Positions 1,538 to 48,345 of a DNA stretch of 64,000 nt are shown in pieces. Origin of the DNA: Microbacterium salitolerans. Lineage in GTDB: Bacteria; Actinomycetota; Actinomycetes; Actinomycetales; Microbacteriaceae. The stretch's first letter is position 1. Every line of letters begins with the position of its first letter. The notes beneath the pieces are model-generated. The model did not search any database and was not told where the DNA came from. It was given only the letters and a program-made list of their open reading frames with translations. The translations under genes and the position numbers were made by a program. The stretch spans positions 620,001 through 684,000 of the forward strand of contig NZ_JAHKSH010000002.1 of the NCBI RefSeq assembly GCF_019720895.1, written 5' to 3'.

Positions 1538-1594
1538 GGCGCCCCTCCCCTGTGCGAGCAGAGACCGCGATCATGGCGCTCATCCTATGCCCGC

Positions 1595-2587
1595 TCAGAC
1601 GGACGCGGCGTCGGCTGCTGCCGCAGCACGCTGCTCGAGGATCCGCTCATCGCGCTGGCGCACCTGAGGTTCGCGCTCACGCAGATACGAGTAGAGCGGC
1701 GCGGCGACGAACAGCGTGGAGTACGTCGCGACGATGATGCCCACGAAGATCGACAGCGAGATGTCGCTGAGCGTCTCGGCACCCATTCCGAACACGCCGA
1801 TGAAGAGGATCGCGGCGACGGGGAGTGCCGCGACCACCGACGTGTTGATGGAGCGGATGAGCGTCTGGTTGACGGCGAGGTTGACGGCCTCGCCGAAGGT
1901 GCGATCGGCGTGCTCCTCGCGTGTGTTCTCCCGGATCTTGTCGAACACGACGGTGGTGTCGTACAGGGAGTACGCGAGGATCGTGAGGAAGCCGATCACC
2001 GCCGACGGTGAGATCTGGAAGCCCGCGAGCGAGTAGATCCCGATCGTGACGATGAGGACGTCGACGAGTCCGATGATCGCGGCGACCGACATCTTCCAGG
2101 TGCGGAAGTAGATCGCCAGGATGAGGAAGGTGAGTGCGAGGAAGATCACGAGTCCGAGCAGCGACTGGTTCGTCACCTGCTGACCCCACGTCGGACCGAT
2201 GAACGAATCTGTCACCTCGTCGGGCGAGACGCCGTACGCGTCGGCGAGTGCCGCAGCGACCTCACGCGAGACGTCGTTCTCGAGAGACGTGGTCTGCACG
2301 CGGATGTCGTCGCCGCCCACGACGGTGACGGTCGACTCCGCCTCGGGGGCGACATCGGCGACCGCATCTGTGGCGATCGCCTGATCCGTCGACGACGGGT
2401 TCGAGACGGTGAACTGGGATCCGCCCGTGAACTCGATCGAGAACTCGACCCCGCGCGCGAATGGAGCGATCGCCGAGATCACCACGAGCACGATCGCGAT
2501 GATGAACCAGAGTCGACGGCGTCCCACGAAGGGAATGGACGTCTTGCCCGTGTAGAGATCGTTTCCGAGCTCGTTGATGGAGCGCAT
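1595..2587 (-). CDS. secF: Protein translocase subunit SecF
   Basis: Membrane component of the SecDF complex, which uses the proton gradient to help proteins leave the SecYEG channel. The protein has 330 residues, with a first membrane helix at about residues 28-45. The family signature GVEFSIEFTGGSQF follows and starts the extracytoplasmic loop. A block of five hydrophobic helices fills the second half (LLGLVIFLALTFLIL, then AAIIGLVDVLIVTIGIYSL, and so on). The Tyr-Asp pair of YSLYDTTVVFDKIRE is typical of SecF transmembrane segment 4. The C-terminal tail is charged and Ala-rich. Its ATG overlaps the secD stop codon (TGATG), so the two are translationally coupled. Confidence 0.96.
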   Translation of the reverse strand: MRSINELGNDLYTGKTSIPFVGRRRLWFIIAIVLVVISAIAPFARGVEFSIEFTGGSQFTVSNPSSTDQAIATDAVADVAPEAESTVTVVGGDDIRVQTTSLENDVSREVAAALADAYGVSPDEVTDSFIGPTWGQQVTNQSLLGLVIFLALTFLILAIYFRTWKMSVAAIIGLVDVLIVTIGIYSLAGFQISPSAVIGFLTILAYSLYDTTVVFDKIRENTREEHADRTFGEAVNLAVNQTLIRSINTSVVAALPVAAILFIGVFGMGAETLSDISLSIFVGIIVATYSTLFVAAPLYSYLREREPQVRQRDERILEQRAAAAADAASV

Positions 2588-8969: not shown

Positions 8970-9821
8970 ATGCAGATCCTCTCGATTCAGTCCGCCGTGG
9001 CATACGGGCACGCGGGGAATTCCGCGGCCGTGTTCCCGATGCAGCGCATCGGCGTCGAGGTGCTCCCCGTGTACACCGTCGCCTTCTCCAACCACACCGG
9101 CTACGGCGCATGGCGCGGTCCGGTGATGGACCCGGCCGACGTCGCCGACGTCATCACCGGCGTCGAGGAGCGCGGCGCGTTCGGTTCGCTCGACGCCGTG
9201 CTGAGCGGCTACCAGGGATCCGAGGGTATCGCGGACGTCATCATCGACGCCGTCGCTCGCGTGAAGTCCCAGAACCCGGACGCGCTCTACGCCTGCGATC
9301 CCGTCATGGGCAACGCGAAGTCGGGCTGCTTCGTGGCCCCGGCGATCCCCGACCTGCTGCGCGACAAGGTCGTTCCGGCTGCCGACATCATCACGCCGAA
9401 TCAGTTCGAGCTCGGATTCCTCACCGGCACATCGCCCGACACCGTGGAGTCGACTCTCGCGTCAGCCGACGCTGCCCGCGCGATGGGGCCGCGCACAGTG
9501 CTGGTCACGAGCGTCGAGCGCCCAGATCGCCCCAACGGCACGATCGAGATGATGGCGGTCGACGACGCCGGCGCCTGGATCGTGCAGACACCGTACCTCC
9601 CGATGAAGGCGAACGGATCCGGAGACGTCACGGCGGCTCTGTTCACCTCGCACTATGCGCGCACGGGAGATGCGGCCGACTCCCTCGCGCGCACGGCGTC
9701 GAGCGTGTTCGGCCTGCTCGAGCAGACGCACGCCGCGGGCACGAAGGAGCTGCAGCTCGTCGAGGCGCAGGAGCACTACGCGAATCCCCGCATGGAGTTC
9801 GCCCCGCGCCGGCTGCGCTGA
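8970..9821 (+). CDS. pdxY: Pyridoxal kinase PdxY/PdxK-type
   Basis: Phosphorylates pyridoxal (salvage) to pyridoxal 5'-phosphate. 283 residues. Ribokinase-fold landmarks are MQILSIQSAVAYGHAGNSAA at the N-terminus, a substrate-contact region around SNHTGYG, CDPVMGN in the middle, IITPNQFEL, and the anion hole with catalytic Asp in ANGSGDVTAA. The start at 8970 gives the family N-terminus; an upstream in-frame Met (MDPWWHDRG) is possible but overlaps the neighbour's start. The salvage gene lies beside the de novo pdxST genes and their regulator, so vitamin B6 supply is grouped here. Confidence 0.93.
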   Translation: MQILSIQSAVAYGHAGNSAAVFPMQRIGVEVLPVYTVAFSNHTGYGAWRGPVMDPADVADVITGVEERGAFGSLDAVLSGYQGSEGIADVIIDAVARVKSQNPDALYACDPVMGNAKSGCFVAPAIPDLLRDKVVPAADIITPNQFELGFLTGTSPDTVESTLASADAARAMGPRTVLVTSVERPDRPNGTIEMMAVDDAGAWIVQTPYLPMKANGSGDVTAALFTSHYARTGDAADSLARTASSVFGLLEQTHAAGTKELQLVEAQEHYANPRMEFAPRRLR

Positions 9822-9844
9822 CCTCGCGACCGGACGTCAGGCGG

Positions 9845-9896
9845 ATCGCCCGATCCACGAACCCTTCCGACCGTGGGCGTCCGAGGACCGGGCGAT
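9845..9896 (+). terminator. Possible terminator after pdxY
   Basis: The arms ATCGCCCG (9845-9852) and CGGGCGAT (9889-9896) enclose a 36-base loop, and TTTTC follows on the plus strand. The long loop makes this a weak candidate. It lies between convergent pdxY and pdxT. Confidence 0.4.
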
Positions 9897-9921
9897 TTTC
9901 GGTGGGGTCCTCCCGGGCGGG

Positions 9922-10512
9922 TCAGGCGACCGCGCGCACCGCGGCGAGGAATCGCGCATGGAAGCGCCGCTCCCCCGTCTGCTCGGGATGGAAGGCCGTC
10001 GCGAGCACGGCTCCCTGCTCGGCCGCCACGGCGCGTCCGTCGGCGACGCGGGCGAGCACGGTCGCGGCCGGTCCGACCTCCTCGATCGCGGGCGCGCGGA
10101 TGAAAGCCGCCCGCACAGACGGCGCCCCCAGCGCCGGCACGTCGATCTCGGTCTCGAACGACTCGCTCTGGCGACCGAAGGCGTTGCGCCGCACCGTGAC
10201 ATCGAGCCCGCCGAATGTGCGCTGCCCGGCGATCCCATCGACGATGCGGTCAGCGAGCAGGATCATGCCCGCGCACGTCCCGTAGACGGGCAGCCCCGCC
10301 CGGATCCGCCCGACGAGCGGATCGCGCAGTTCGAACGCCCGCGCGAGCTTGTCGATCGTCGACGATTCCCCGCCCGGCAGCACGAGCCCGTCGACCTGGT
10401 CGAGCTCCTCCGGCCGGCGCACGCGGGTGGTGCGCGCGCCGAGATCGGAGAGGACGCGCTCGTGCTCGCGCACGTCGCCTTGGAGGGCGAGGATCCCGAC
10501 GCGCGGCGTCAC
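9922..10512 (-). CDS. pdxT: Pyridoxal 5'-phosphate synthase glutaminase subunit PdxT
   Basis: Class I glutaminase that releases ammonia from glutamine and passes it to PdxS. 196 residues. The start [17 protein letters not shown] is typical, then the glutamine-binding GGES at residues 47-50, nucleophile Cys80 in VYGTCAGM, and the His/Glu of the triad in [10 protein letters not shown] near the C-terminus. Its ATG overlaps the pdxS stop by ATGA, consistent with a coupled synthase complex. Confidence 0.96.
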
Positions 10513-11408
10513 CAGCCGCGCTCGGCGAGACGATGCGGCGCGGGCACGTCGGCGACGCTGATGCCGACCATCGCCTCGCCGAGTCCGCGCGAGACATCTG
10601 CGACGACAGCCGGGTCGTCGTGGAAGGTGGTCGCCTGGACGATCGCCTTCGCGCGACCGGCGGGATCACCCGATTTGAAGATGCCCGAGCCGACGAACAC
10701 GCCGTCCGCACCGAGCTGCATCATCATCGCCGCGTCTGCGGGGGTCGCGACGCCGCCTGCCGTGAACAGCACGACGGGGAGCTCCCCCGTGCGCGCGACC
10801 TCGGCGACGAGCTCGTACGGCGCCTGCAGCTCCTTGGCGACGACGTAGAGCTCGTCGTCGCTCTTCGAGGACAGCTGGCGGAGCTCGCCCGTGATCTGAC
10901 GGATGTGCCGGGTCGCCTCCGAGACGTCTCCCGTGCCGGCCTCGCCCTTCGAGCGGATCATCGCGGCACCCTCGGTGATGCGCCGCAGCGCCTCGCCCAG
11001 ATTCGTCGCGCCGCAGACGAACGGCACCGTGAACGGCCACTTGTCGATGTGATTCACGTAGTCCGCCGGCGAGAGCACCTCGGACTCGTCGATGTAGTCG
11101 ACTCCGAGCTCCTGCAGCACACGAGCTTCGACGAAGTGTCCGATGCGCGCCTTCGCCATCACGGGGATCTCGACGGCGTCGATGATGCCGTCGATGAGAT
11201 CCGGGTCGCTCATGCGGGCCACACCGCCCTGGGCGCGGATGTCGGCGGGCACGCGTTCGAGCGCCATGACGGCGACGGCGCCGGCATCCTCCGCGATCCG
11301 CGCCTGCTCGGCCGTGACGACGTCCATGATGACGCCGCCCTTCAGCATCTCCGCGAATCCGCGCTTCACGCGCCCCGTGCCGATCTGCGTCTCGGGTGCT
11401 GTGCTCAT
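10509..11408 (-). CDS. pdxS: Pyridoxal 5'-phosphate synthase lyase subunit PdxS
   Basis: Builds pyridoxal phosphate from a pentose phosphate, a triose phosphate and ammonia. 299 residues, a complete (beta/alpha)8 barrel. Diagnostic blocks are [46 protein letters not shown] (with a catalytic Lys), [37 protein letters not shown], and [32 protein letters not shown]. It is divergent from the MocR-type gene, whose product is its likely regulator. The 5' gap of 93 bp holds the shared control region. Confidence 0.97.
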
Positions 11409-11501
11409 GGGCTCTCCTGCCCTCGGCGGGACGGACCCGCATGGTTGACGGTTTGATCTAGGCCAAAAGCATAGAACGATCAGACAATATACTCAGCTCT
11501 G
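11409..11501. promoter_or_regulatory. Divergent pdxS / pdxR control region
   Basis: This 93-bp gap is locally AT-rich near 11463-11495. On the plus strand TATACT (11488-11493) sits 8 bases before the regulator's ATG, so the regulator may be transcribed without a leader. On the minus strand TTTTGGCCTAGATC (from about 11468 down) resembles the PdxR site recalled from Corynebacterium (AAAGTGG-W-CTA type), with mismatches. The shared layout is typical of PdxR control: activation of pdxST and self-repression. The site assignment is inference. Confidence 0.5.
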
Positions 11502-12827
11502 ATGACACACGACGACATGACGTTCGGCATCCAGGGCGCGACCGCGGCTGAGATCGCCGGCAGCGTGCGGGCCCTGATCGAGCGCGGCGCGCTCGCACAG
11601 GGATCCTCCCTGCCGCCGGTGCGCGCCCTCGCCGACGCGCTCGGCGTCAACCGCAACACGGCAGTGGCGGCGTACCGCTCTCTATCGCTCGCGGGACTCG
11701 TGAGTTCGCATGGTCGCGCGGGCACCCGCGTCGCCGGCGCCCCCGCGACGCCGCAGGAGGGGCTCGACCCGGCGAGTGCGCTGCGCGACGTCGCCGCGGG
11801 GAATCCCGATCCCACCTTCATCCCCGACGTGTCGCGCGCGCTCGCCGCGCTCGCCAGTCGCCCCGTTCTCTACGGCGAGTCCGTCATCGATCCCGAACTC
11901 GCCCGATGGGCCGAGGAATGGGTTCGCCCGGACGTGCCGTCGCGTCCGACGCTGACGATCACGAACGGGGCGTTCGACGCGGTCGAGCGTCTCCTCGCGC
12001 AGGCGCTCACGCGCGACGACGCCGTCGCGATCGAGGATCCCGGCTTCCTCGCGACCATCCGCACGGTCCGGCTCGCGGGATACCGACCGGTCCCGATCGC
12101 GGTCGATGCGGAGGGCCCGACGGTCGGGAGCGTCCGGGCCGCCCTCGACGAGGGGGTGCGCGCGATCGTCGTCACGCCGCGCGCGCAGAATCCGACCGGC
12201 GCGAGCCTGTCCGGTCGCCGTGCGGCCGCACTTCGGACGCTGCTCGCGGATCACCCCTACGTGCTCGTGATCTCCGACGACCACTTCTCGCTGCTTTCCC
12301 ACCGCCCGCATCGCGCGATCGTCGGCCCCGGCCACCGTCGCTGGGCGCTCGTGCGCTCGGTGTCGAAGTTCCTCGGCCCGGATATGTCGCTGGCCGTCGT
12401 CGCGTCAGATCCGCGCACGGCGGAGCGCCTCGCGCTGCGGCTCAGCCCCGGCACCACGTGGGTGAGTCACCTGCTGCAGCGTCTCGCTCACGCCCAGCTC
12501 GCGGATCCGGACGCCCGGGCGCGCATCGCCGCCGCCTCCGACCACTATGCGGAGCGGGCCACGGCGCAGCGCGATCGCCTGGCCGCGCGCGGGATCGCGG
12601 CAGCAGACGGCGAAGGGCTCACCCTGTGGGTGGACGCGGGCAAGCCCGCGCGCGGCGTCGTGGAGCAGCTGATGCGTCGCGGCTGGCTCGCACGCGCGGG
12701 AGACGAGTTCCAGGTCTCGCCCGACTCCCCATCGACGCATCTGCGGATCACGGCGCACCATCTCGACGACGACGCACAGGAGCGCCTCGCAGCAGACCTC
12801 GCCGCGGCGATCGAGGCGGCGAGCTGA
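11502..12827 (+). CDS. pdxR: MocR-family transcriptional regulator, PdxR-like
   Basis: Predicted PLP-sensing regulator of vitamin B6 synthesis. 441 residues. The N-terminal winged helix of the GntR type occupies about residues 10-75 (GSSLPPVRALADALGVNRNTAVAAYRSL). It is fused through a linker to a fold-type-I aminotransferase-like domain. PLP landmarks are DDAVAIEDPGF, VTPRAQNPTGASL, VISDDHFSLL and the Schiff-base lysine in VRSVSKFLGPDMSL (about residue 290). The location divergent from pdxST is the classical PdxR position. The assignment rests on domain architecture plus context. Confidence 0.9.
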   Translation: MTHDDMTFGIQGATAAEIAGSVRALIERGALAQGSSLPPVRALADALGVNRNTAVAAYRSLSLAGLVSSHGRAGTRVAGAPATPQEGLDPASALRDVAAGNPDPTFIPDVSRALAALASRPVLYGESVIDPELARWAEEWVRPDVPSRPTLTITNGAFDAVERLLAQALTRDDAVAIEDPGFLATIRTVRLAGYRPVPIAVDAEGPTVGSVRAALDEGVRAIVVTPRAQNPTGASLSGRRAAALRTLLADHPYVLVISDDHFSLLSHRPHRAIVGPGHRRWALVRSVSKFLGPDMSLAVVASDPRTAERLALRLSPGTTWVSHLLQRLAHAQLADPDARARIAAASDHYAERATAQRDRLAARGIAAADGEGLTLWVDAGKPARGVVEQLMRRGWLARAGDEFQVSPDSPSTHLRITAHHLDDDAQERLAADLAAAIEAAS

Positions 12828-12898
12828 GGCAGCCCCGCACGTTCGCCGCAGATGCCGGATCCGTCGCGGTCGCACGACGGTGAACGGCGTGCGGACTG

Positions 12899-13456
12899 CT
12901 AAGCGGGCCAGGCGTCGGCGATGGCCTGACGCACCTCGCCGAGCAGCTGCGGAAGCGCTTTCGTCCTGCCGATGATCGGGAAGAAGTTCGCGTCGCTCGC
13001 CCAGCGCGGCACGATGTGCTGGTGCAGGTGCTCTTCGACGCCGGCCCCCGCGACCTGGCCCTGATTCATGCCGATGTTGAAGCCATCGCAACGGGATGTG
13101 GTCCGCAGGACCCCCATCGCGACCTTCGTGAGGTGCGCGATCTCGGCCGTCTCCGCGACCGTCGCCTCGTCGTAGTGGCCGACGTGCCGGTAGGGGCACA
13201 CGAGCAGGTGGCCGGAGTTGTATGGGAACAGGTTCAGCAGCACGAAGGCGTGCTCGCCGCGATGCACGATGAGTCCGTCCTCATCGGACTTGTCGGGCGC
13301 CGCGCAGAACGGACACCCCGTGCCGCGGTTCACGTCGGCGCCCGCCGTGATGTACGCCATGCGATGCGGCGTCCAGAGGCGCTGGAACGCGTCGGGGACT
13401 CCCCCGAGTGCGCTCTCCGGCTCGAGCTGCGAGAACTCGTCGCGGGGATCCGTCAC
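12899..13456 (-). CDS. HIT-family nucleotide hydrolase/phosphorylase (diadenosine tetraphosphate-type)
   Basis: 185 residues. The histidine-triad signature HLHQHIV is at residues 143-149, with [18 protein letters not shown] just before it. A CPFC pair (Cys48, Cys51) suggests a zinc-linked N-terminal region, as in actinobacterial diadenosine-tetraphosphate phosphorylases such as the mycobacterial Rv2613c type. The substrate is inferred. The GTG start at 13456 overlaps the thrS stop (GTGA), so it is cotranslated with threonyl-tRNA synthetase. Aminoacyl-tRNA synthetases are a known source of dinucleoside polyphosphates, so the pairing fits. Confidence 0.88.
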
Positions 13457-15429
13457 GCAGCGTCCTCGTCCGTCATCACGAGCTTCTTCTCTCCCACGAG
13501 GCGGGCGACGAGCGCGATCGCCTCATCGATCGGCACGCCGTTGCGCTGCGTGCCGTCGCGGAAGCGGAACGAGACGGTGCCCGCCGAGCGGTCCTGCTCG
13601 CCGGCGATGAGGATCAGCGGCACCTTGCTCGTCGTGTGCGTGCGGATCTTCTTCTGCATGCGGTCGTCGGACGCATCGAGCTCGGCGCGGATGCCGGCGC
13701 GCCGAAGCTGATCGACCACGTCGCCGAGGTAGTCGGCGTAGTCGCCCGCCACGGGAACGCCCATGACCTGCACGGGAGCGAGCCACACCGGGAAATCGCC
13801 CGCGTAGTGCTCGAGGAGAATCGCGAAGAAGCGCTCGATGGACCCGAACAGCGCGCGGTGGATCATGATCGGGCGCTGCTTGGTTCCGTCGGCGGCCGCA
13901 TACTCGAGGTCGAAACGCTCGGGCAGGTTCGGATCCACCTGCACGGTCGACAGCTGCCACACGCGCCCGAGCGCGTCGCGCGTCTTCAGGTCGATCTTGG
14001 GGCCGTAGAACGCCGCCTCGCCGGGCACCTCGGTGAGCTTCAGCCCGCTCGCGACCGCGACGTTGCGCAGCGCATTCGTCGAATCGGCCCAGAACTCGTC
14101 GCTGCCGATCCACTTCGACTTCTCGTCGTCGCGCATCGACAGCTCGAGTTCGAAGTCGTCGAGGCCGAAGTCGCGGAGCATCGAGATGATGAACTCGAGA
14201 ACCTTCGTCACCTCGCCCTCGAGCTGGTCGGGGGTGACGAACAGGTGGGAGTCGTCCTGCGTGAAGCCGCGCACGCGTGTGAGCCCGTGCAGCGCCCCCG
14301 AGAGCTCGTTGCGGTAGACGGTGCCGTTCTCGGCGAACCGCAGCGGCAGGTCGCGGTAGCTGCGTGCACGCTCCTTGTAGATGAGAATGTGCATGGGGCA
14401 GTTCATGGGCTTGAGGAAGTAGTCAGAGCCCTGCTTCGTGATGGCGCCGTCGTCGTCGCGCTCCTCGTCCATGTGGATGGCGGGCCACATGCTGTCACCG
14501 TAGGTGGACAGATGGCCGGACGCCTGGAAGAGATCGCTCTTCGAGATGTGCGGCGTGTACACGTAGGTGTATCCGCCCTCGATGTGGCGGCGACGAGCGT
14601 GCTGCTCCATCTCGCCGCGCACCACGCCGCCCTTGGGGTGCCACACCGACAGCCCCGACCCGATCTCCTCCGGGAACGAGAAGAGGTCGAGCTCACGACC
14701 CAGCTTGCGGTGGTCGCGGCGCGCCGCCTCGGCGAGGCGATCCTGGTAGGACCTGAGCTCGTCCTTCGTGGGCCACGCCGTGCCGTAGATGCGCTGGAGC
14801 TGAGGGTTCTTCTCGTCGCCGCGCCAGTAGGCGCCCGCCAGGCGGACGATGTCCCACCCGTTGCCGATGAGCTTCGTGTTCGGGAGGTGCGGCCCACGAC
14901 AGAGGTCCTTCCAGATGACCTCGCCCGTCTTCGGGTCGACGTTGTCGTAGATCGTCAGCTCGCCCGCACCCACCTCGACGCTCGCGCCCTCGGCGGCTTC
15001 TTTCGACCCGCCCTTGAGGCCGATGAGCTCGAGCTTGAACGGCTCGTCGGCCAGCTCGGAGCGCGCCTCGTCGTCGGTGACAGCCCGGCGAACGAAGCGC
15101 TGACCCGCCTTGACGATGCGCTGCATCTCCTTCTTGATCGCCTTGAGGTCGTCGGGCGTGAAGGGCTCTGCAACCTCGAAGTCGTAGTAGAAGCCGTCGG
15201 TGATCGGCGGCCCGATCCCGAGATTCGCCTGCGGGGTGATCGACTGAACCGCCTGCGCGAGGACGTGCGCCGCGGAATGGCGGAGGATCGCGAGGCCCTC
15301 CTCGCTGTCGATCGTGACCGGCTCGACCGTCTGGATGTCCGTGACCTCCGCTGCGAGGTCGGTCAGCTCTCCGTCGACGCGCATGGCGACGACGTTGCGG
15401 TCGGGGTGCAGATCGAATCCAGTGCTCAC
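13453..15429 (-). CDS. thrS: Threonyl-tRNA synthetase
   Basis: Charges tRNA-Thr. 658 residues. A short N-terminal TGS-like segment is followed by the editing domain with [13 protein letters not shown]. The class II catalytic core has [17 protein letters not shown], the zinc-site cysteine in [28 protein letters not shown] (motif 2) and [28 protein letters not shown] (motif 3). The C-terminal anticodon-binding domain follows ([22 protein letters not shown]). The GTG at 15429 has AGGATGG upstream. No T-box leader is visible. It overlaps the downstream HIT gene. Confidence 0.97.
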
Positions 15430-15473
15430 CCATCCATCCTATGACTGCGTCGCGCAGCCGCCATCGCGTTCTC

Positions 15474-15809
15474 TCAGACGGCGGGGAGGGTACGGCCGTA
15501 CATCGCGGCGGTCGCCCGAACGGTCGGAGATCCGGCGTCCGGGTCGGCACCGGCGCGCAGCAGGGTCAGGATCAGATCTTCGTGCCCCTTGAACACGGCG
15601 CCCGCGAGCGGCACGAGGCCCTTCGCGTTGGGGCGATTCACGTCGGCGCCCCGCGCGACGAGGCCCCGCACCAGCTCCGCATGGCCGTGGTACGTCGCGA
15701 GCATGACGAGCGTGTCGCCGTTCTCATTGGCCTTGTCGACGTCGAAGCCGTCGTCGATGGCCTGGAGGAGCACCGGGTCTCCCGTACGCGCGAACTCGAA
15801 GAGATCCAT
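15474..15809 (-). CDS. Small ankyrin-repeat protein
   Basis: 111 residues made almost entirely of ankyrin repeats: NENGDTLVMLATYHGHAELVRGLVARGADVNRPNAKGLVPLAGAVFKGHEDLILTLLRAGADPDAG, written here as three successive units from residues 10 to 95 (each unit keeps the G-x-TxLxxA-x-xGH pattern). No signal peptide or enzymatic domain. It is upstream of thrS with a gap of about 44 bp. The start ATG at 15809 is preferred; an in-frame GTG seven codons upstream is possible and neither has a strong ribosome site. Probably a protein-binding module; the partner is unknown. Confidence 0.8.
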   Translation of the reverse strand: MDLFEFARTGDPVLLQAIDDGFDVDKANENGDTLVMLATYHGHAELVRGLVARGADVNRPNAKGLVPLAGAVFKGHEDLILTLLRAGADPDAGSPTVRATAAMYGRTLPAV

Positions 15810-15912
15810 GGGATCAGTATCTCTGCTCACCGCGCTCGGGAGGATAACGATCCCGAAGCGGATCGAGCGCGGATCCCCGGTGCCGGTCTGTCGCACGCGC
15901 TGCGATGGATGT

Positions 15913-15958
15913 AAGAAGGCCCCGGGTCGGAGCGACTGCTCTGACTCGGGGCCTTCTT
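15913..15958 (-). terminator. Terminator of the four-tRNA operon
   Basis: The arms AAGAAGGCCCCG (15913-15924) and CGGGGCCTTCTT (15947-15958) pair over 12 bases. The hairpin begins 7 bases after the 3' end of the last tRNA-Gly on the minus strand, in the right place to end the tRNA transcript. Confidence 0.75.
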
Positions 15959-15964
15959 CTTTCG

Positions 15965-16037
15965 AGCGGATGACGAGACTCGAACTCGCGACCCTCACCT
16001 TGGCAAGGTGATGCGCTACCAACTGCGCTACATCCGC
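15965..16037 (-). tRNA. tRNA-Gly (anticodon GCC), copy 2
   Basis: 73 bases. The acceptor stem pairs GCGGATG with CATCCGC, the anticodon loop reads CTTGCCAAG around GCC, and the T-loop is GAGTTCGAGTCTC. No CCA is encoded. It is last in a minus-strand array of four tRNA genes and identical in sequence to the first. Confidence 0.96.
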
Positions 16038-16070
16038 CGATACGAAAGCCCCCGTCGTGCGGGGGCTTCG

Positions 16071-16142
16071 TGCGCGATACTGGGATCGAACCAGTGACCT
16101 CTTCCGTGTCAGGGAAGCGCGCTACCGCTGCGCCAATCGCGC
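16071..16142 (-). tRNA. tRNA-Val (anticodon GAC)
   Basis: 72 bases. The acceptor stem pairs GCGCGAT with ATCGCGC. The anticodon stem CTTCC/GGAAG holds a loop centred on GAC, and the T-arm is CTGGTTCGATCCCAG. Third gene of the array. Confidence 0.95.
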
Positions 16143-16167
16143 TCAATTGAGCTGTTCAGTTTTTACG

Positions 16168-16238
16168 AGGTGGCGACGGGATTCGAACCCGTGTAAACGG
16201 CTTTGCAGGCCGGTGCCTAGCCTCTCGGCCACGCCACC
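16168..16238 (-). tRNA. tRNA-Cys (anticodon GCA)
   Basis: 71 bases. The acceptor stem pairs GGTGGCG with CGCCACC, the anticodon loop CTGCAAA reads GCA, and the T-arm is ACGGGTTCGAATCCCGT. Second gene of the array. Confidence 0.96.
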
Positions 16239-16289
16239 GTGGGGATCGAACCCGCGTGCCGAGCCACCCGAAGGCGCTCTGTGCACTCG

Positions 16290-16362
16290 AGCGGATGACG
16301 AGACTCGAACTCGCGACCCTCACCTTGGCAAGGTGATGCGCTACCAACTGCGCTACATCCGC
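16290..16362 (-). tRNA. tRNA-Gly (anticodon GCC), copy 1
   Basis: 73 bases, the same sequence as the copy at 15965-16037. First gene of the minus-strand array Gly-Cys-Val-Gly. The spacer between this gene and tRNA-Cys contains a loose T-arm-like stretch (GCGGGTTCGATCCCC near 16242-16257), possibly a leftover of a lost tRNA. Confidence 0.96.
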
Positions 16363-16400
16363 ATTTCTGTCCCCAGCCTCTTGCGCCGGGCACTTGAAAT

Positions 16401-16430
16401 ACATTAGCCCACATCCGACCGCCCGCAAAA
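16401..16430 (-). promoter_or_regulatory. Candidate promoter of the tRNA array
   Basis: On the minus strand TAATGT (16406-16401) is a good -10 element, about 40 bases before tRNA-Gly. TTTTGC (16430-16425) is a weak -35 with an 18-base spacer. Placement fits a stable-RNA promoter; the -35 match is poor. Confidence 0.5.
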
Positions 16431-16523
16431 CCTGATGCCGCCGCCGGGCGTGTCCGCGCATGCGCGACGCGGATCCGACATCCCCGGCCGACGTGTGCGT
16501 TCTTCCCCGTGCCGATCATCCTG

Positions 16524-16529
16524 TAGTAT
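16524..16529 (+). promoter_or_regulatory. Candidate -10 element for tRNA-Val(CAC)
   Basis: TAGTAT lies 34 bases upstream of the tRNA-Val start and matches the -10 consensus at four of six positions. No convincing -35 is seen at the usual spacing. Confidence 0.4.
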
Positions 16530-16563
16530 CGGTGCTCGTGCCGAACGGCGCACAACTTCACAC

Positions 16564-16637
16564 GGGCGATTGGCGCAGTTGGTTAGCGCGCTTCCTTCAC
16601 ACGGAAGAGGTCATGGGTTCGAGTCCCGTATCGCCCA
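16564..16637 (+). tRNA. tRNA-Val (anticodon CAC)
   Basis: 74 bases. The acceptor stem pairs GGGCGAT with ATCGCCC. The anticodon stem CTTCC/GGAAG holds a loop TTCACAC reading CAC, and the T-arm is TGGGTTCGAGTCCCG. It is divergent from the four-gene array and followed 10 bases later by a strong terminator. The region downstream is the least conserved-looking part of the window, so this tRNA could mark an old integration site; no duplicated 3' end was found. Confidence 0.96.
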
Positions 16638-16647
16638 CCGAGAGAAA

Positions 16648-16669
16648 CCCCGGCTCGCCGGGGTTTTTT
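16648..16669 (+). terminator. Rho-independent terminator of tRNA-Val
   Basis: CCCCGGC (16648-16654), a TC loop, and GCCGGGG (16657-16663) followed by TTTTTT (16664-16669). Classical hairpin plus U-run. Confidence 0.9.
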
Positions 16670-17027
16670 GTTTCCCCGGAAGGCGTCGGAGGCCCGATTT
16701 TCGGCCTGTACCCATCCAAATACCCATACGGGCTGAAGACAGCCCGATCGCTTCGCCCAGGCCGTGCAGGGCCTGCTTGTGCCGCAGCATGAACAGCGCC
16801 GCGCGCGAAGGTCGCCGACCCGCTCGTCACTACTCACCCGGTAGCGTCACCTCACTCACACCCGCGACCGCAGCCACGCACCGAGCTCACCACTCCCCCA
16901 GAACGTGATGCGTGCAGCACCTCACGTGCCCGTGCGATCTTGCGGCCCGCCGGACCCTGCCGATGTGATGCACACGTGTCGCCGTTCCCGTCGTGATCAG
17001 CGGCACAGCAAAGGTGCTCCTGGAGGC
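16670..17027. other. Accessory-looking gap with no intact gene
   Basis: About 358 bp after the tRNA-Val terminator. Codon-position GC bias is weak in all frames up to about 16975. It holds one copy of an imperfect 28-base direct repeat (16741-16768) whose minus strand reads HGLGEAIGL in frame. From about 16979 a second frame briefly shows coding-like bias (VAVPVVISGTAKVLLEA) before the next ORF takes over in another frame, which suggests a broken 5' end. Apparent ORFs over the tRNA genes that read like DTGLEPMTSS are tRNA artefacts. Confidence 0.55.
16741..16768. repeat. Imperfect direct repeat, copy 1
   Basis: 28 bases beginning AGCCCGATCGCTTCGCC, matching 17733-17760 at 25 of 28 positions. 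Read on the minus strand the differences fall at synonymous third positions of HGLGEAIGL, so both copies look like pieces of related protein-coding sequence, not random repeats. Confidence 0.7.
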
Positions 17028-17282
17028 GTGCGGACCGAGCTCGCCTCCTCCTCCCTGAGCATCAGTTCGTCGCGCACCGTGTCGAACTCGACAACGTGTC
17101 ACTCTCCCAAGATGAAGGCAGGACAGACGTTCGTGGCGCACCCGGTTGGCGAGCGCTACCGTTACAAGGTTCGCCAGAAGACGTACAACCTCCTGACCTA
17201 TTCGGTCCTGGCCGTGAAGACCACCGGATGGAAGTACGCGTTCAACCCCAAGCGCAACCACATCTACTGCACAGTTCGATGA
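17028..17282 (+). CDS. Small uncharacterised protein, probably with a broken 5' end
   Basis: About 84 residues from the GTG at 17028; the frame is open further upstream to 16905, but codon bias there is not coding-like. The C-terminal part has good bias and looks real: CHSPKMKAGQTFVAHPVG, RYRYKVRQKTYNLL, KTTGWKYAFNP and IYCTVR. Two cysteines near the ends could form a disulfide in an exported domain. Its stop overlaps the next gene's start by ATGA, a sign that it is or was translated with the lipoprotein. No clean signal peptide is in frame; a hydrophobic stretch lies in another frame just upstream. No family recognised. Confidence 0.45.
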   Translation: MRTELASSSLSISSSRTVSNSTTCHSPKMKAGQTFVAHPVGERYRYKVRQKTYNLLTYSVLAVKTTGWKYAFNPKRNHIYCTVR

Positions 17283-43522: not shown

Positions 43523-44563
43523 TCAGAGGTAGGCGCGTGGGACCAGAGGCGAGATCCGGAGGAGCGGCTCCTCCCCGACCGTGCCGATCGCTTCGCCGAG
43601 GTCGGTCGGCGTCGGCTCCCCTGATGCGCCCGACCCGAAGATGACGACCTCGTCGTCGAGCGCCGCGCCCGGCCAGGCCGCAACGAACGCCTCGAACGGG
43701 TCCACGCGGAGAAGCTCCCGCGGACCGGCGGGCGTCGACACCGAGACGCGGCCGCCCAACGTCGACGGGAGGCCATCGACGGCGCCGATGCCGATGCGCA
43801 CGCCCGCGTCGACCACCCCGGTCACGCGGGCCACAAGCGAGGACACGGGAGCGATTCCGGGGAGGTCGGGGCCGTCTTCGGAGCGCACGCCGAAGCAGAA
43901 CGCGCCCACGCGCACCAGGTCGTAGCGGAACTCCGGGCGGTGCCACGAGGCCGCGCTCGCCGCGAGGTGGCGCACATCGGGATCCAGCCCAGCGGCGCGC
44001 GCCGCGTCGACCGCGTCGTCGAAGACGGCGCGGGAGACATCGTCCTCGTCGTCGCTCGCCTCCGCGATATGGCTCCAGATCCCCGTCACGCGGATCCTGC
44101 TCTCGCGCTCCCAGCCACGCGCGGCCGCACAGAATTCGGCCCACGCCTCAGGACGGACGCCGTTGCGGTGGAGCCCGGTGTCGATCTTGAGATGAACCGG
44201 CGCGACGACGCCCGCGCTGCGGGCCGCGCGCGCGATCCGCTCGAGATACGAGATATCGCCGACGCCGAGTTCGAGGCCTCCTCGTATGCCCGCTTCCGCC
44301 TCTTCCTCGGACACGGTCATCCATGCCAGTACGCGCGCACGATCACCTGCTTCGGCCTTCGCGCGGAGCGAGCTCGCCAGGTCGATGCCGCCGAACCAGA
44401 CCGCCCCCGCATCGAGGGCGGCATCGACGATGGGCTCGACACCCTGGGCATAGGCGTCGTCCTTGATGACGACGAGCACCTCCGCGGGCGCCATGCGCGC
44501 TCGCACGGCACGAACATTCCGGCGGAGGCGTCCGAGGTCGACGCGCAGCTCTGCCGTGTTCAC
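43523..44563 (-). CDS. Alanine-racemase-like protein B: PLP barrel intact, catalytic Tyr segment lost
   Basis: 346 residues. The barrel is complete: PLP lysine in LVVIKDDAYAQG (near residue 34), KIDTGLHRNG with the conserved Arg, WSHIAEASDDE with His, HLAASAASW with Ser, and VRVGAFCFG with the Arg that contacts the pyridine nitrogen. In the C-terminal domain the segment that carries the catalytic Tyr (GVSYG...) is deleted: RVTGVVDAGVRIGIGAVDG joins directly to the following strand. The usual GRVxMD motif is replaced by LRVDPFEAFV. The end is VPRAYL. GTG at 44563 overlaps the stop of the upstream partner (GTGA) and has GGGAGG upstream. Probably needs partner A to supply the missing acid/base residues. 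Confidence 0.88.
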   Translation of the reverse strand: MNTAELRVDLGRLRRNVRAVRARMAPAEVLVVIKDDAYAQGVEPIVDAALDAGAVWFGGIDLASSLRAKAEAGDRARVLAWMTVSEEEAEAGIRGGLELGVGDISYLERIARAARSAGVVAPVHLKIDTGLHRNGVRPEAWAEFCAAARGWERESRIRVTGIWSHIAEASDDEDDVSRAVFDDAVDAARAAGLDPDVRHLAASAASWHRPEFRYDLVRVGAFCFGVRSEDGPDLPGIAPVSSLVARVTGVVDAGVRIGIGAVDGLPSTLGGRVSVSTPAGPRELLRVDPFEAFVAAWPGAALDDEVVIFGSGASGEPTPTDLGEAIGTVGEEPLLRISPLVPRAYL

Positions 44564-45237
44564 GGGACCACCTCCCGCGGAGCGGACAGCCCCACCACGG
44601 CGACGAGCTCCAGCGCCGACCAACCCGTGGCACGCACCCAGTCGTCGAGCAGATGCGGGGCGGATCCTCCGAAGTACACGGCCTCCGCGCCGGACTCCAG
44701 CTCCAGATCGCTGCCGATGTCGACCACGCACACGTCCATCGCCACGCGGCCGATGATGGGGCGTTCCGCGTCTCCGAAGCGCACGGACGCCGTTCCGCCG
44801 ATCGCGCGTGCCACGCCCTGCGCGTATCCGCCAGAGATCAGCGCGGCGTTGGTGTCGCTCGTCGCGCGATGCCTGTAGCCATACGAGACACCGTCGCCGG
44901 CGCGCAGGCGCTTCGTCTGCAGGACGGGGGCCGCGAACGTCAGTGCGGGGGCTCCACGTCCGTTCAGCCCGTAGACGGCATCGAGATCGAGGGCCGGCCC
45001 CGCCGACGGATGCATCCCGAGCGCCACGGCATCAGCGGGCTCGTCCGTGCGCGCCGCGGTCACGCCCGCGGCGCGTGCGGACTCCGCCACCGTCGCGGCG
45101 CCGTGGCCGCACGCGTCGCGACGCAGATCCACGACGACATCGCGACGGCCTGCGGCCGCCGCGGCGATATTTTTCTCGAGCGCCGCGCGCGACACACGCA
45201 CCCGCGGAGCGCTCATGCTCAGAGTCGACTCACTCAT
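44560..45237 (-). CDS. Alanine-racemase-like protein A: C-terminal domain intact, barrel mostly lost
   Basis: 225 residues, against about 370 for a normal alanine racemase. The region equal to the PLP-lysine motif reads VDLRRDACGHG: Arg where Lys should be, Cys where Tyr should be. About 150 residues of barrel with the PLP-binding Arg, His and Ser are missing; the protein then passes to LDAVYGLNG and a complete C-terminal domain: GDGVSYGYRHRATSDT with the catalytic Tyr, ISGGYAQGVARA, and IIGRVAMDVCVVDIG. So it holds what partner B lacks. Start ATG 45237; a second Met at 45216 is possible. A TAGTCT -10 element ends 8 bases upstream, so the transcript may be leaderless. Alone it cannot be a PLP racemase. 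Confidence 0.88.
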   Translation of the reverse strand: MSESTLSMSAPRVRVSRAALEKNIAAAAAGRRDVVVDLRRDACGHGAATVAESARAAGVTAARTDEPADAVALGMHPSAGPALDLDAVYGLNGRGAPALTFAAPVLQTKRLRAGDGVSYGYRHRATSDTNAALISGGYAQGVARAIGGTASVRFGDAERPIIGRVAMDVCVVDIGSDLELESGAEAVYFGGSAPHLLDDWVRATGWSALELVAVVGLSAPREVVP

Positions 45238-45322: not shown

Positions 45323-46348
45323 ATGCCCGCGAACGGCCTCGCCCTCGGACCGAAGCTCCGCTATCTCGCAGAGCGCGCCCGCCGCATCGACATCGGCTCG
45401 GTGATCGAGCGCGCTCGAGAGGTGCACGACGAGCACGGCAAGGCGGTGCCTGCCGTGCTCGCGGACATGCTCTGGTCCGCCGCGAAGAAGGATGTCGCGT
45501 TCCAGGACTACGTCGACTTCGACTTCGCGATCCTCTCCGCCGCCGAGCGCGAGACCTTCATGACCCACCCTGTCTCGGCACAGCTCGCTCAGCAGTGGTC
45601 GCAGCCCGCCGGGCGGAAGATCTTCGAGGACAAGATCGCCTTCAATCGCCGATTCGACGCGTTCCTGAAGCGCGCGTGGCTCATCGTCGACGACCACAAC
45701 GTGGATGCCGTGCGTGAGTTCGTCGAGACCCAGAAGACGATCATCGCGAAGGTGCCCGTGAGCCACATGGGCCTCGGCGTGCGCCGGTATCACGCGAAGG
45801 ACGTCGACGACTGGTCGGCCTTCCACCGCCAGCTGCGCGACCGCGGCGAGGTGCTGCTCGAGGAGATCATCACGCAGCACGACGACATCTCCGCCGTCTG
45901 CCCCGGCACCGTCAACACGACGCGCATCACGGCGTTCTTCGACGGCGCGGACGTGCACGTTCTCGCCGTCGCGCAGAAGTTCGGGCGCGGCGAAGTCAGC
46001 GACCAGATGTCGTACGGCGGCTTCTACACGATGCTGGACCCGGACACGGGCCACGCGATGAGCGCCGGGTACGACTCGCACGCGCATGTGCACGAGACCC
46101 ACCCCGACACCGGCTTCCGCATCGCCGACTTCCAGCTCCCCCTGTTCGACGAGGCCGTCGCGCTCGTCGACAAGGCCGCCCGTGAGGTCCCCGACGTGCA
46201 GTACGCGGGATGGGACGTGGTCGTGACCCCGACCGGTCCTGTGCTCGTCGAGGGCAACTGGGGTGCGGGCGTGTACGAGAACAAGCCGAGCGTGTCGGGT
46301 GTCCGCACCGGGCACAAGCCGCGCTATCGCGCAGCCATCGGCTTCTGA
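45323..46348 (+). CDS. Sugar-transfer-associated ATP-grasp protein
   Basis: 341 residues. Resembles the ATP-grasp subfamily often found in cell-surface polysaccharide loci (Pfam ATPgrasp_ST). Visible features are PVSHMGLGVRRYHAKDV, EVLLEEIITQHDDI, VCPGTVNTTRITAFFDG, VAQKFGRGEVSDQMSYGGFY and the C-terminal metal/ATP block GWDVVVTPTGPVLVEGNWGAG, with Glu and Asn as likely Mg ligands. The first 110 residues are helical and carry no enzyme motif. Such enzymes join an acid to an amine using ATP. ATG 45323 follows CGGAGG. Divergent from the racemase pair by 85 bp and convergent with the CofE-like gene. Confidence 0.85.
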   Translation: MPANGLALGPKLRYLAERARRIDIGSVIERAREVHDEHGKAVPAVLADMLWSAAKKDVAFQDYVDFDFAILSAAERETFMTHPVSAQLAQQWSQPAGRKIFEDKIAFNRRFDAFLKRAWLIVDDHNVDAVREFVETQKTIIAKVPVSHMGLGVRRYHAKDVDDWSAFHRQLRDRGEVLLEEIITQHDDISAVCPGTVNTTRITAFFDGADVHVLAVAQKFGRGEVSDQMSYGGFYTMLDPDTGHAMSAGYDSHAHVHETHPDTGFRIADFQLPLFDEAVALVDKAAREVPDVQYAGWDVVVTPTGPVLVEGNWGAGVYENKPSVSGVRTGHKPRYRAAIGF

Positions 46349-46408: not shown

Positions 46409-47101
46409 TCAGGCCGCGCGGATGATGCCCATCGGCGTCGACTGATGCCCCTGCCCCAGCGGGTTGTCGCTGAGGATCTTCACGAGGGTGCGCTCAGCCG
46501 TCTTGTCGAGGGTCGAGCCGAGGATGTTCCCGCCGATGTCGTTGATGTCGACGACCGCGACATCGCAGCCGACGAGCTTCTTCATCTCCGCAGCGACCTC
46601 TCGCGGCCGCTCGGGGCCGAGCACGACCGCGTCGTTGTACGGCGGGATCGTGTTGGGAGTCGGGCCGTCGATCGCACGCGCCTTGTCGCCTGCGATCCGG
46701 TAGAAGTCGCCGCGCCGCCCGAAGAGCTTCGTCACGGCCGAGACGCCGGCGGCGAAGAGGATCCGCAGCGGGCCGACCTCACGCAGAGCGAACTCCATCG
46801 TCTCGGGGATGCCGAGACCGATGCCGTACGCCGACTTCGTGACGTACTTCGAGAGGAAGCGCGCGAGCGGCCGAGGCTCGATCTCGCTCATCATGTAGGA
46901 GCGTCCCTGCATGATCGCGACGATCTTCTCGGTGATGAAGAGAGTGTCGCCCTGCTGGACCGAGTCGACCGCATACTTCTGGACGATCTCCTCGAGCTGA
47001 TCGCCGGGCATCACCACGTGTGTGCGCAACGGGATGCGCAGGTACGAGGCGCCGTCGATCGTGACGTTGAGGGCCTTGCCCTCGTTGGCATCGCTCACCA
47101 T
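46409..47101 (-). CDS. CofE-like coenzyme F420-0:gamma-glutamyl ligase family protein
   Basis: 230 residues. CofE fold landmarks are VVMPGDQLEEIVQKYAV, GDTLFITEKIVAIMQGRSYMM, SAYGIGLGIPETMEFA, and VVDINDIGGNILGS. The family joins glutamate or related amino acids to a carboxylate with GTP or a similar nucleotide. The window has no other F420 gene (cofC, fbiA and so on), so a role in another amide ligation is more likely. Its ATG overlaps the sigA stop (TGATG), so it would be translated from the primary sigma factor mRNA. It faces the ATP-grasp gene, and CofE-like and ATP-grasp genes are known to cluster in putative peptide-ligation loci. Confidence 0.83.
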   Translation of the reverse strand: MVSDANEGKALNVTIDGASYLRIPLRTHVVMPGDQLEEIVQKYAVDSVQQGDTLFITEKIVAIMQGRSYMMSEIEPRPLARFLSKYVTKSAYGIGLGIPETMEFALREVGPLRILFAAGVSAVTKLFGRRGDFYRIAGDKARAIDGPTPNTIPPYNDAVVLGPERPREVAAEMKKLVGCDVAVVDINDIGGNILGSTLDKTAERTLVKILSDNPLGQGHQSTPMGIIRAA

Positions 47102-48345
47102 CACTCGAGGTAGTCCCGCAGCGACTGCGAGCGGCTCGGGTGACGCAGCTTCGCCATGGTCTTGGACTCGATCTGGCGGATCCGCTCGCGCGTGACGCCG
47201 AACGTGTCGCCGATCTGATCGAGCGTCTTGGGCTGTCCGTCTCCGAGGCCGAAGCGCATGCGGATCACGCCCGCCTCGCGCTCCGAGAGCGAGTCGAGGA
47301 GCCCCTCGAGCTGACGCTGCAGCATCGTGAAGCCCACGGCGTCCGCCGGGACCACGGCCTCGGTGTCCTCGATCAGGTCACCGAACTCGCTGTCGCCGTC
47401 CTCACCCAGTGGCGTGTGCAGAGAGATCGGCTCGCGACCGTACTTCTGCACCTCGACGACCTTCTCAGGCGTCATGTCGAGTTCCTTGGCCAGCTCCTCG
47501 GGCGTGGGCTCGCGGCCCAGATCCTGCAGCATCTGGCGCTGCACACGGGCGAGCTTGTTGATGACCTCGACCATGTGGACCGGGATGCGGATCGTGCGGG
47601 CCTGGTCGGCCATGGCGCGCGTGATGGCCTGACGGATCCACCATGTGGCGTACGTCGAGAACTTGAAGCCCTTGGTGTAGTCGAACTTCTCGACCGCGCG
47701 GATCAGACCGAGGTTGCCCTCCTGGATCAGATCGAGGAACTGCATTCCGCGGCCCGTGTAGCGCTTCGCGAGCGAGACGACGAGACGGAGGTTCGCGCCG
47801 AGCAGGTGGCTCTTCGCGCGCTTTCCGTCGCGGGAGACCCACTGCATGTCGAGGCCGAGCTGCGTCGACTTCTCAGCCGCCGACATCTTCGACAGCTTCT
47901 CCTCGGCGAACAGGCCCGCCTCGATCCGCATCGCGAGGTCGACTTCCTCTGCCGCGTTGAGCAGCGGAACCTTGCCGATCTGCTTCAGGTAGTCCTTGAC
48001 AGGGTCGGCCGTCGCCCCGGTGATCTGCGTCGAGTAGACCGGGACGTCCTCCTCCTCGGAGGCGCTGATGACGATCGCGCCCGTCGGGAGCGGCTCGGCC
48101 TGCTCCTTCTTGGGCGCCTTCTTATCTTCGGCCTCTTCGGTCTCGGACGCGTCGTCACCGATGATCTCGGCGACGACGTCGCTCTTCTTCCGAGCCGTCT
48201 TCTTGGCCGCAGGCTTCTTCGCGGCTGGCTTCTTCGTCGCCGCCTTCTTCGCGGCGCCCTTGGTGGCAGCCGTATCGTTCTCGGCCGTCGCGGCCGTGGT
48301 CTCGTCGACCTCGTCGGTCTTCGTGGTCTTCGTGGCAGGAGTCAC
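47101..48345 (-). CDS. sigA: RNA polymerase primary sigma factor
   Basis: Housekeeping sigma-70. 414 residues. The N-terminus is a Lys/Ala-rich low-complexity tail with repeats of PAAKK (residues about 30-55). Region 1.2 is [16 protein letters not shown]. Region 2 has [44 protein letters not shown] (quoted for location only, in parts: [14 protein letters not shown] and [13 protein letters not shown]). Region 3 is [17 protein letters not shown], and region 4 has [20 protein letters not shown] and [14 protein letters not shown]. No other rpoD gene is in the window. Stop overlaps the CofE-like start. Confidence 0.96.

Follow-up and report, generated by a model that had tools for sequence, protein, structure and literature searches.

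Adjoining alanine racemase-like genes with complementary losses in Microbacteriaceae: a candidate obligate heterodimer with one composite active site

We describe two overlapping genes, A and B, in a 64,000-nt stretch of Microbacterium salitolerans DNA (contig NZ_JAHKSH010000002.1, positions 620,001–684,000; hereafter, the window). Each encodes an incomplete alanine racemase, and together the two proteins hold all the catalytic residues of the alanine racemase fold. Very probably, the two proteins are the subunits of an obligate heterodimer that has one composite active site. We infer the complex and its activity from the complementary loss of residues, the linkage of the two genes, their conservation, selection on both, gene fusions, and the predicted fold of A.

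Gene layout and residue content

The first-pass annotation of the window had described two overlapping, degenerate alanine racemase genes, and the open reading frames and the GTGA overlap are as it reported; both frames are on the minus strand (Table 1). Such an overlap may couple the translation of A and B. The aligned start of B, an alignment-based position, lies 3 or 6 bases before the last base of the A stop codon in 69 of the 79 named loci that have both genes (from the best 80 of 436 loci).

Table 1. Features of the A/B locus, in window coordinates
Feature	Position	Strand	Description or basis
Gene A	44560..45237	minus	225 aa; ATG at 45237, stop TGA 44562-44560; barrel vestige without PLP lysine plus alanine racemase C-terminal domain; candidate partner-donating subunit
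Gene B	43523..44563	minus	346 aa; GTG start 44563-44561, stop 43525-43523; full barrel with Lys34, C-terminal domain without Tyr265 loop and Met312; candidate PLP-binding subunit
GTGA overlap of A stop codon and B start codon	44560..44563	minus	Sequence
Arg39 of A, at the PLP-lysine position (Lys39 lost)	45121..45123	minus	Alignment with the genome's intact Alr
Tyr119 of A, Tyr265 equivalent (motif GVSYG)	44881..44883	minus	Alignment
Met167-Asp168 of A, Met312-Asp313 equivalents	44734..44739	minus	Alignment
Lys34 of B, PLP lysine (Lys39 equivalent)	44462..44464	minus	Alignment
Glu331 of B, position 354 (Tyr in the genome's intact alanine racemase)	43571..43573	minus	Alignment
ATP-grasp protein	45323..46348	plus	341 aa; PF14397 ATPgrasp_ST, 4.5e-33; candidate ligase partner

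For the alanine racemase homodimer, it is established which residues each chain gives in cis and which it gives to its partner's site. We number residues as in Geobacillus Alr, transferred through the genome's own intact Alr. The only Pfam match in A is Ala_racemase_C (8.4e-25). B matches Ala_racemase_N over positions 1–219 of 220 (7.3e-46), and of Ala_racemase_C it matches no more than the tail (PF00842; profile positions 77–127 of 127, 17.5 bits vs. a cut-off of 25), and it can be aligned to S. lavendulae Alr over residues 7–346. Alignment with the genome's intact Alr agrees: most of the barrel is missing from A, and B has neither the Tyr265 loop nor the Met-Asp motif. The earlier description of A, with its C-terminal domain kept and the PLP lysine and most of the barrel lost, is therefore borne out by both Pfam and the alignment (Arg39). 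Neither protein passes the alanine racemase model TIGR00492 (cut-off 168 bits; A 85.6, B 112.6) or NF009879 (cut-off 434 bits; B 46, A 25.4), which we take to model the broad-specificity racemase group.

Lys39 is present in B (as Lys34) and replaced in A (Arg39), and neither chain combines it with Tyr265: B has no Tyr segment, and A has the tyrosine without the lysine. The residues given in cis have equivalents in B (Lys39, Tyr43, Arg136, His166, Ser204, and Arg219), and those given to the partner's site have equivalents in A (Tyr265, Tyr284, Arg290, Met312, and Asp313). Arg219 is a mark of racemases that fold type III decarboxylases typically lack, and we counted its retention in B in favor of a racemase. 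The predicted structure of A is confident (pLDDT 93.6) and superposes on alanine racemases over nearly its full length. For Glu331 of B, at position 354, we propose a contact with the substrate side chain.

An intact alanine racemase of 374 aa is encoded in one copy on another contig of the same genome, which also has two further barrel matches, both without a C-terminal domain match.

Complementary losses across loci

The best 80 of 436 loci, which we refer to as the named loci, gave 78 A and 80 B proteins. Lys39 is absent from all 78 A proteins, all of which have Tyr265, Arg290, Met312, and Asp313. All 80 B proteins have Lys39, Tyr43, Arg136, His166, Ser204, Arg219, and Gly221; in every one Tyr265 is deleted and position 354 is Glu. 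We added 66 A and 66 B proteins from a survey of the family and 26 A and 27 B proteins from later loci, counting identical C-terminal ends once. Among the resulting 169 distinct A proteins, none has Lys39, all have Met312, and 168 have Tyr265, the remaining one being cut by a contig end. Among 172 distinct B proteins, Lys39 is universal, Arg219 is found in 171 (one is cut), and a Met is aligned at 312 in two.

The complementarity that the first-pass annotation saw in the window thus holds across loci. Its account of B stands as to the full barrel and, for the window's B, as to the missing Tyr segment and Met-Asp motif, but the loss of Asp313 is not general: out of 66 B proteins, 43 keep Asp313 and 20 keep Tyr284, so the near-strict losses in B are those of Tyr265 and Met312.

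How the classes were defined matters to these counts. The A class was defined by a missing barrel match and not by Lys39, so the Lys39 count in A is not circular. The B class was defined by the missing Tyr265, so that loss in B is not evidence on its own; the independent statement is that wherever an A type was found, the adjoining barrel protein lacks Tyr265. The C-terminal domain itself is divided between the two proteins, with A keeping the partner-facing part without the Tyr354 tail and B keeping the tail (Tyr, Glu, or Asp at 354) without the partner-facing part. Random decay would hardly give a division that so follows function.

We also looked in B for a replacement acid/base in cis, a finding that the first-pass annotation had held would count against it, and found no conserved one. 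The Tyr265 segment is deleted in the B proteins seen, with an aligned Gly in one of 66. Glu354 was considered as a substitute and rejected, since intact tandem racemases (below) already carry Glu354 together with Tyr265.

In the mechanism that we propose, B would bind PLP via Lys34 and give the equivalents of Tyr43, Arg136, His166, Ser204, and Arg219 in cis. The C-terminal domain of A would enter the site of B, where Tyr119 (Tyr265) would serve as the second acid/base, and A would also give the equivalents of Arg290, Met312, and Asp313, as the chains of alanine racemase homodimers do for each other. The dimer's second site, formed by an A lysine and a B tyrosine, would have been lost from both chains. 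The probable ancestor of A and B is a pair of intact racemases in tandem. Our best guess at the substrate is a diamino acid such as ornithine, whose racemized form would enter the bridge of group B peptidoglycan, with the adjoining ATP-grasp protein perhaps attaching it.

Distribution, linkage, and selection

Complementary pairs or fusions occur in fetched loci of 28 of the 85 sampled Microbacteriaceae genera. The named loci (best 80 of 436) are nearly all from Microbacterium, with one from Frigoribacterium and the rest from unclassified Actinomycetota, Actinomycetales, or Microbacteriaceae. In 79 of these 80, A lies directly upstream of B; the remaining one is at a contig end.

Across 237 genomes of the window's genus, B was found in 194 (E ≤ 1e-115), leaving 43 without a match at that threshold, and A in 163 (E ≤ 1e-58). 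B was likewise found in all but one of the 163 genomes with A; the case without it (G629) is at a contig end. We picked 48 of the A matches listed, and in 47 of them B follows 0–60 bp downstream on the same strand; in the other genome (G664), A and B are at the ends of different contigs. Conversely, 32 genomes have B and no A above the cut-off, and in all eight of these that were fetched, A is directly upstream or fused. One genome of the genus (G469) was matched with its intact racemase only. The occurrence of A and B apart, which the first-pass annotation had held would count against a heterodimer, was therefore seen only at contig ends among the loci examined.

The median dN/dS is 0.21 for A and 0.22 for B (197 nonindependent comparisons), and by this measure both genes are under purifying selection. 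Among the matches listed for 198 genomes of the order, of which 184 belong to other families, none from outside Microbacteriaceae scored like an A type. The best score outside the family among these matches is 177.6 bits, with all such matches in frames of at least 353 aa; the A types listed within the family score about 187 to 292 bits.

Fusions, tandem relatives, and origin

Pairs come in two kinds. In type 1 pairs, which include that of the window, A precedes B, and position 354 is Glu or Asp; in type 2 pairs, B precedes A or is fused to it as B-A, and position 354 is Tyr. Single-frame fusions, in which internal starts are possible, were found in the order A-B (L144, L226, L227, and L264) and in the order B-A (L137 and L186–L195). 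One A-B fusion comes from the window's genus (L264, genome G568; 141–1649, minus strand) and forms a single frame of 502 aa. Seven of the B-A fusions (L137, L186, and L191–L195; genera g21 and g74) hold the sole alanine racemase C-terminal domain matches of their genomes. These seven would be natural single-chain forms of the composite site. Another locus (L125, genome G225 of g54; 9504–17034) has two complementary pairs and two ATP-grasp genes between rpoD and gyrB, and its second A keeps more of the barrel.

Two intact racemases lie in tandem in seven genera (g5, g8, g12, g27, g32, g35, and g36), and such tandem pairs are the likely precursor of the A/B pair. Elsewhere, A is still long and has lost its lysine (some genomes of g9, g54, g58, g81, and g85), has lost most of its barrel (Microbacterium and many other genera), or is barely more than a C-terminal domain of 172–225 aa (several g2 genomes, g76, and one g85 genome). 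A series of decay from tandem pair through long A and barrel-poor A to minimal A is possible.

In a barrel tree of 123 rows, a support of 100 unites type 1 B proteins with the downstream tandem copies, and these intact copies are nested inside B. In a reduced set, holding B together without the tandem copies gave an AU P of 0.046. The 123-row tree favors separate origins of type 1 and type 2 pairs. The C-domain tree weakly groups the A proteins of both types (support 81), and in the reduced tree their separation is without support.

Genomes with C-terminal domain matches in pairs or fusions only

Every PF00842 match falls within a complementary pair or fusion in all six genomes of g21, all five of g78, and two of the five of g74 (G136 and G234). 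These 13 genomes are 97%–100% complete. The other three g74 genomes (G073, G188, and G274) have one further racemase each. Those of two g74 genomes (L169 in G073 and L170 in G188) are of the broad-specificity kind; L169 is close to PDB 4bf5, 4dyj, and 4dza, and L170 groups with it in the C-domain tree.

None of the 13 genomes has a D-amino-acid transaminase (TIGR01121) above the cut-off, and weaker matches exist. Peptidoglycan requires D-alanine, and the leading candidates for these genomes' alanine racemase are the type 2 pairs, with their Tyr354; this implies that such split designs can be active in vivo. Since the pairs that are candidates for this role are of type 2 and not of the window's type, they support the principle, and the window's pair not directly.

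Substrate and the neighboring ATP-grasp gene

The substrate of the window's lineage is probably not alanine, given the intact alanine racemase elsewhere in the genome and the Glu at position 354 of B. The first-pass annotation had allowed that the substrate might not be alanine, which for the window's pair is plausible in view of Glu354. All six genomes of the genus that we examined residue by residue also have an intact racemase with Tyr354. Likewise, each of the 22 genomes with a type 1 pair in g1, g39, g54, g74, and g78 carries, besides that pair, an intact racemase or a type 2 version; Trp occupies position 354 in three of these accompanying g54 racemases.

The intact tandem pairs offer a further view of this position. 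Among 18 genomes with such pairs (g5, g32, and g36), none has a further intact racemase with Tyr354, and four have a further intact racemase with another residue there (L171–L174). In these three genera (L129, L136, L151, L152, and L196–L203), Asn313 goes with Tyr or Trp at 354 in the upstream copy, and Asp313 with Glu354 in the downstream one. Asn313 is found in the 14 upstream copies of these genera and in seven of 66 A proteins. The tandem site built on the downstream lysine would carry Glu354 and Asn313, and the other would carry Asp313 and Tyr354 (Trp in three copies), resembling an alanine racemase. Taken over eight related genera, this suggests a tandem dimer of double specificity, whose alanine site disappeared where it was redundant.

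A D-diamino acid for peptidoglycan, perhaps D-ornithine, is a lead that we deduce from Glu354 in the window's B and the adjoining ATP-grasp gene; it is the weakest step of our argument, and we consider it about evenly balanced. PMC10757982 reports D-ornithine for eight species of the M. gubbeenense clade and for M. sufflavum, and L-lysine for M. gubbeenense itself. That clade includes the nearest named relatives of the window (best 80 of 436 loci). M. gubbeenense (L038) has both the pair and the ATP-grasp gene, and its reported L-lysine argues against a simple role in D-ornithine supply.

The ATP-grasp gene is divergent from A, with 85 bp between the two start codons. Homologs were found in 66 of the 80 named loci (best 80 of 436), within 1 kb of A in 65; contig ends truncate some of the 14 loci without one. 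The homolog is codirectional and just before A in five named loci (L037, L039, L064, L096, and L107). One of these is from M. sufflavum (L096), where the three genes are together and the fetched stretch has no gyrB, parC, or rpoD match. Close relatives (E ≤ 1e-100) were found in 22 of 299 genomes of the family and lie within about 1.5 kb of a pair in all but one of the 22 (G107). Most pairs fetched from other genera have no ATP-grasp gene nearby, and two of six genomes of the genus with the pair (G106 and G296) have no relative at E ≤ 1e-60. In Enterococcus faecium, an ATP-grasp enzyme attaches D-aspartate to peptidoglycan precursors, and by analogy it is a reasonable guess that the neighboring protein is a ligase for a D-diamino acid.

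Farther along, directly after a sigma factor gene, the window has a match to F420 gamma-glutamyl ligase (PF01996, 37.7 bits; 46409–47104, minus strand). Homologs of this gene occur near the pair in many of the named loci (best 80 of 436).

Alternative explanations

The obligate heterodimer proposed in the first-pass annotation draws its support, at the level of sequence, from the complementary losses, the linkage of A and B, the fusions, the intact tandem relatives, and the genomes that have only pairs or fusions. Because an intact Alr is encoded in the same genome, one might take A and B for two decaying pseudogenes of a duplicated alanine racemase, the intact copy doing the work. That is scarcely credible: the median dN/dS of both genes is about 0.2, the same residue split recurs in loci of 28 genera, A and B are found in 163 and 194 of 237 genomes of the genus at the cut-offs used, and they have fused in both orders. 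The intact Alr could instead be the partner of A or B in mixed dimers, as it is homologous, keeps both half-sites, and may have compatible interfaces. However, A and B lie side by side, in most cases overlap, and have fused repeatedly, and no intact Alr accompanies the pairs or fusions of the g21 and g78 genomes examined, so we regard mixed dimers as very improbable. Nor is it at all probable that B is the enzyme, as a one-base racemase or another PLP enzyme, and that A regulates or stabilizes it without giving a catalytic residue. The PLP site of B is complete, and Glu354 could in principle be a base; yet what A conserves is the set of catalytic partner residues (Tyr265, Arg290, and Met312), intact tandem racemases with Tyr265 already have Glu354, and type 2 B proteins with Tyr354 still lack Tyr265. 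B alone as a full racemase, which the first-pass annotation had named as a finding that would refute the heterodimer, is at odds with its lack of the catalytic Tyr.

A different question is whether the heterodimer is a plain alanine racemase, in the window's lineage as well. This gains some weight from genomes without another racemase, whose likeliest source of D-alanine is a type 2 pair with Tyr354. The window's pair is of type 1, however: Glu354 is found in all 80 B proteins of the named loci (best 80 of 436), other genera have Glu or Asp at this position in their type 1 pairs, and the six genomes of the genus examined all have an intact Tyr354 racemase too. We consider a plain alanine racemase unlikely.

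Returning to the heterodimer with a substrate other than alanine, we offer a fuller scenario, tentatively and at somewhat less than even chances. An ancestral tandem heterodimer would have had an alanine site (A lysine with B tyrosine, Tyr354) and a diamino acid site (B lysine with A tyrosine, Glu or Asp at 354). The alanine site would have been lost from both chains where another alanine racemase existed, and the obligate one-site heterodimer, with the ATP-grasp ligase, would then make the D-diamino acid found in group B peptidoglycan and attach it. In some genera, a sister version, fused into one chain, would have become the sole alanine racemase.

If our reading is right, the A/B pair is a natural, family-wide case of a homodimer becoming an obligate heterodimer by complementary loss. 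Possible intermediates are alive (tandem pairs, lysine-less long A, barrel-poor A, minimal A, and fusions), which would make the evolution of obligate heterodimers directly testable. The pair would also be a candidate enzymatic source of the D-ornithine, or similar amino acid, in the group B peptidoglycan of Microbacteriaceae, and a candidate ligase lies next to it. Annotation that expects one complete racemase chain could overlook the alanine racemase of g21, g78, and like genera.

Comparison with known systems

A search of open-access literature found no heterodimeric or split alanine racemase. Several known proteins resemble A or B in part. YggS/PLPHP has, like B, a PLP barrel of the Pfam family PF01168, but it has no C-terminal domain; B keeps one, has a dedicated partner, and so falls outside that group. 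The window's genome also encodes a short PF01168 protein (C8:80425), presumably of the YggS kind by its length and score. Antizyme inhibitor, an inactive paralog of the fold type III enzyme ornithine decarboxylase, is like A a catalytically incomplete paralog. We know of no role for it in completing an active site; unlike it, A carries the missing half of one.

The broad-specificity and lysine racemases (4bf5, 4dyj, 4dza, and 4beu) are nonalanine members of the same fold, homodimeric and with all residues in one chain. In alignments they have Met-Asn at 312–313 and no Tyr aligned with 354, and they share Asn313 with some A proteins. B is distant from them in sequence (46 bits vs. the NF009879 cut-off of 434). 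Alr/DadX (fold type III PLP, EC 5.1.1.1; M. tuberculosis 6scz and 1xfc, S. lavendulae 1vfh, and Geobacillus 1sft) is also among the closest known systems. Known Alr enzymes are homodimers with two identical composite sites; by comparison, the residues in A and B are divided between two genes, and one possible site is left.
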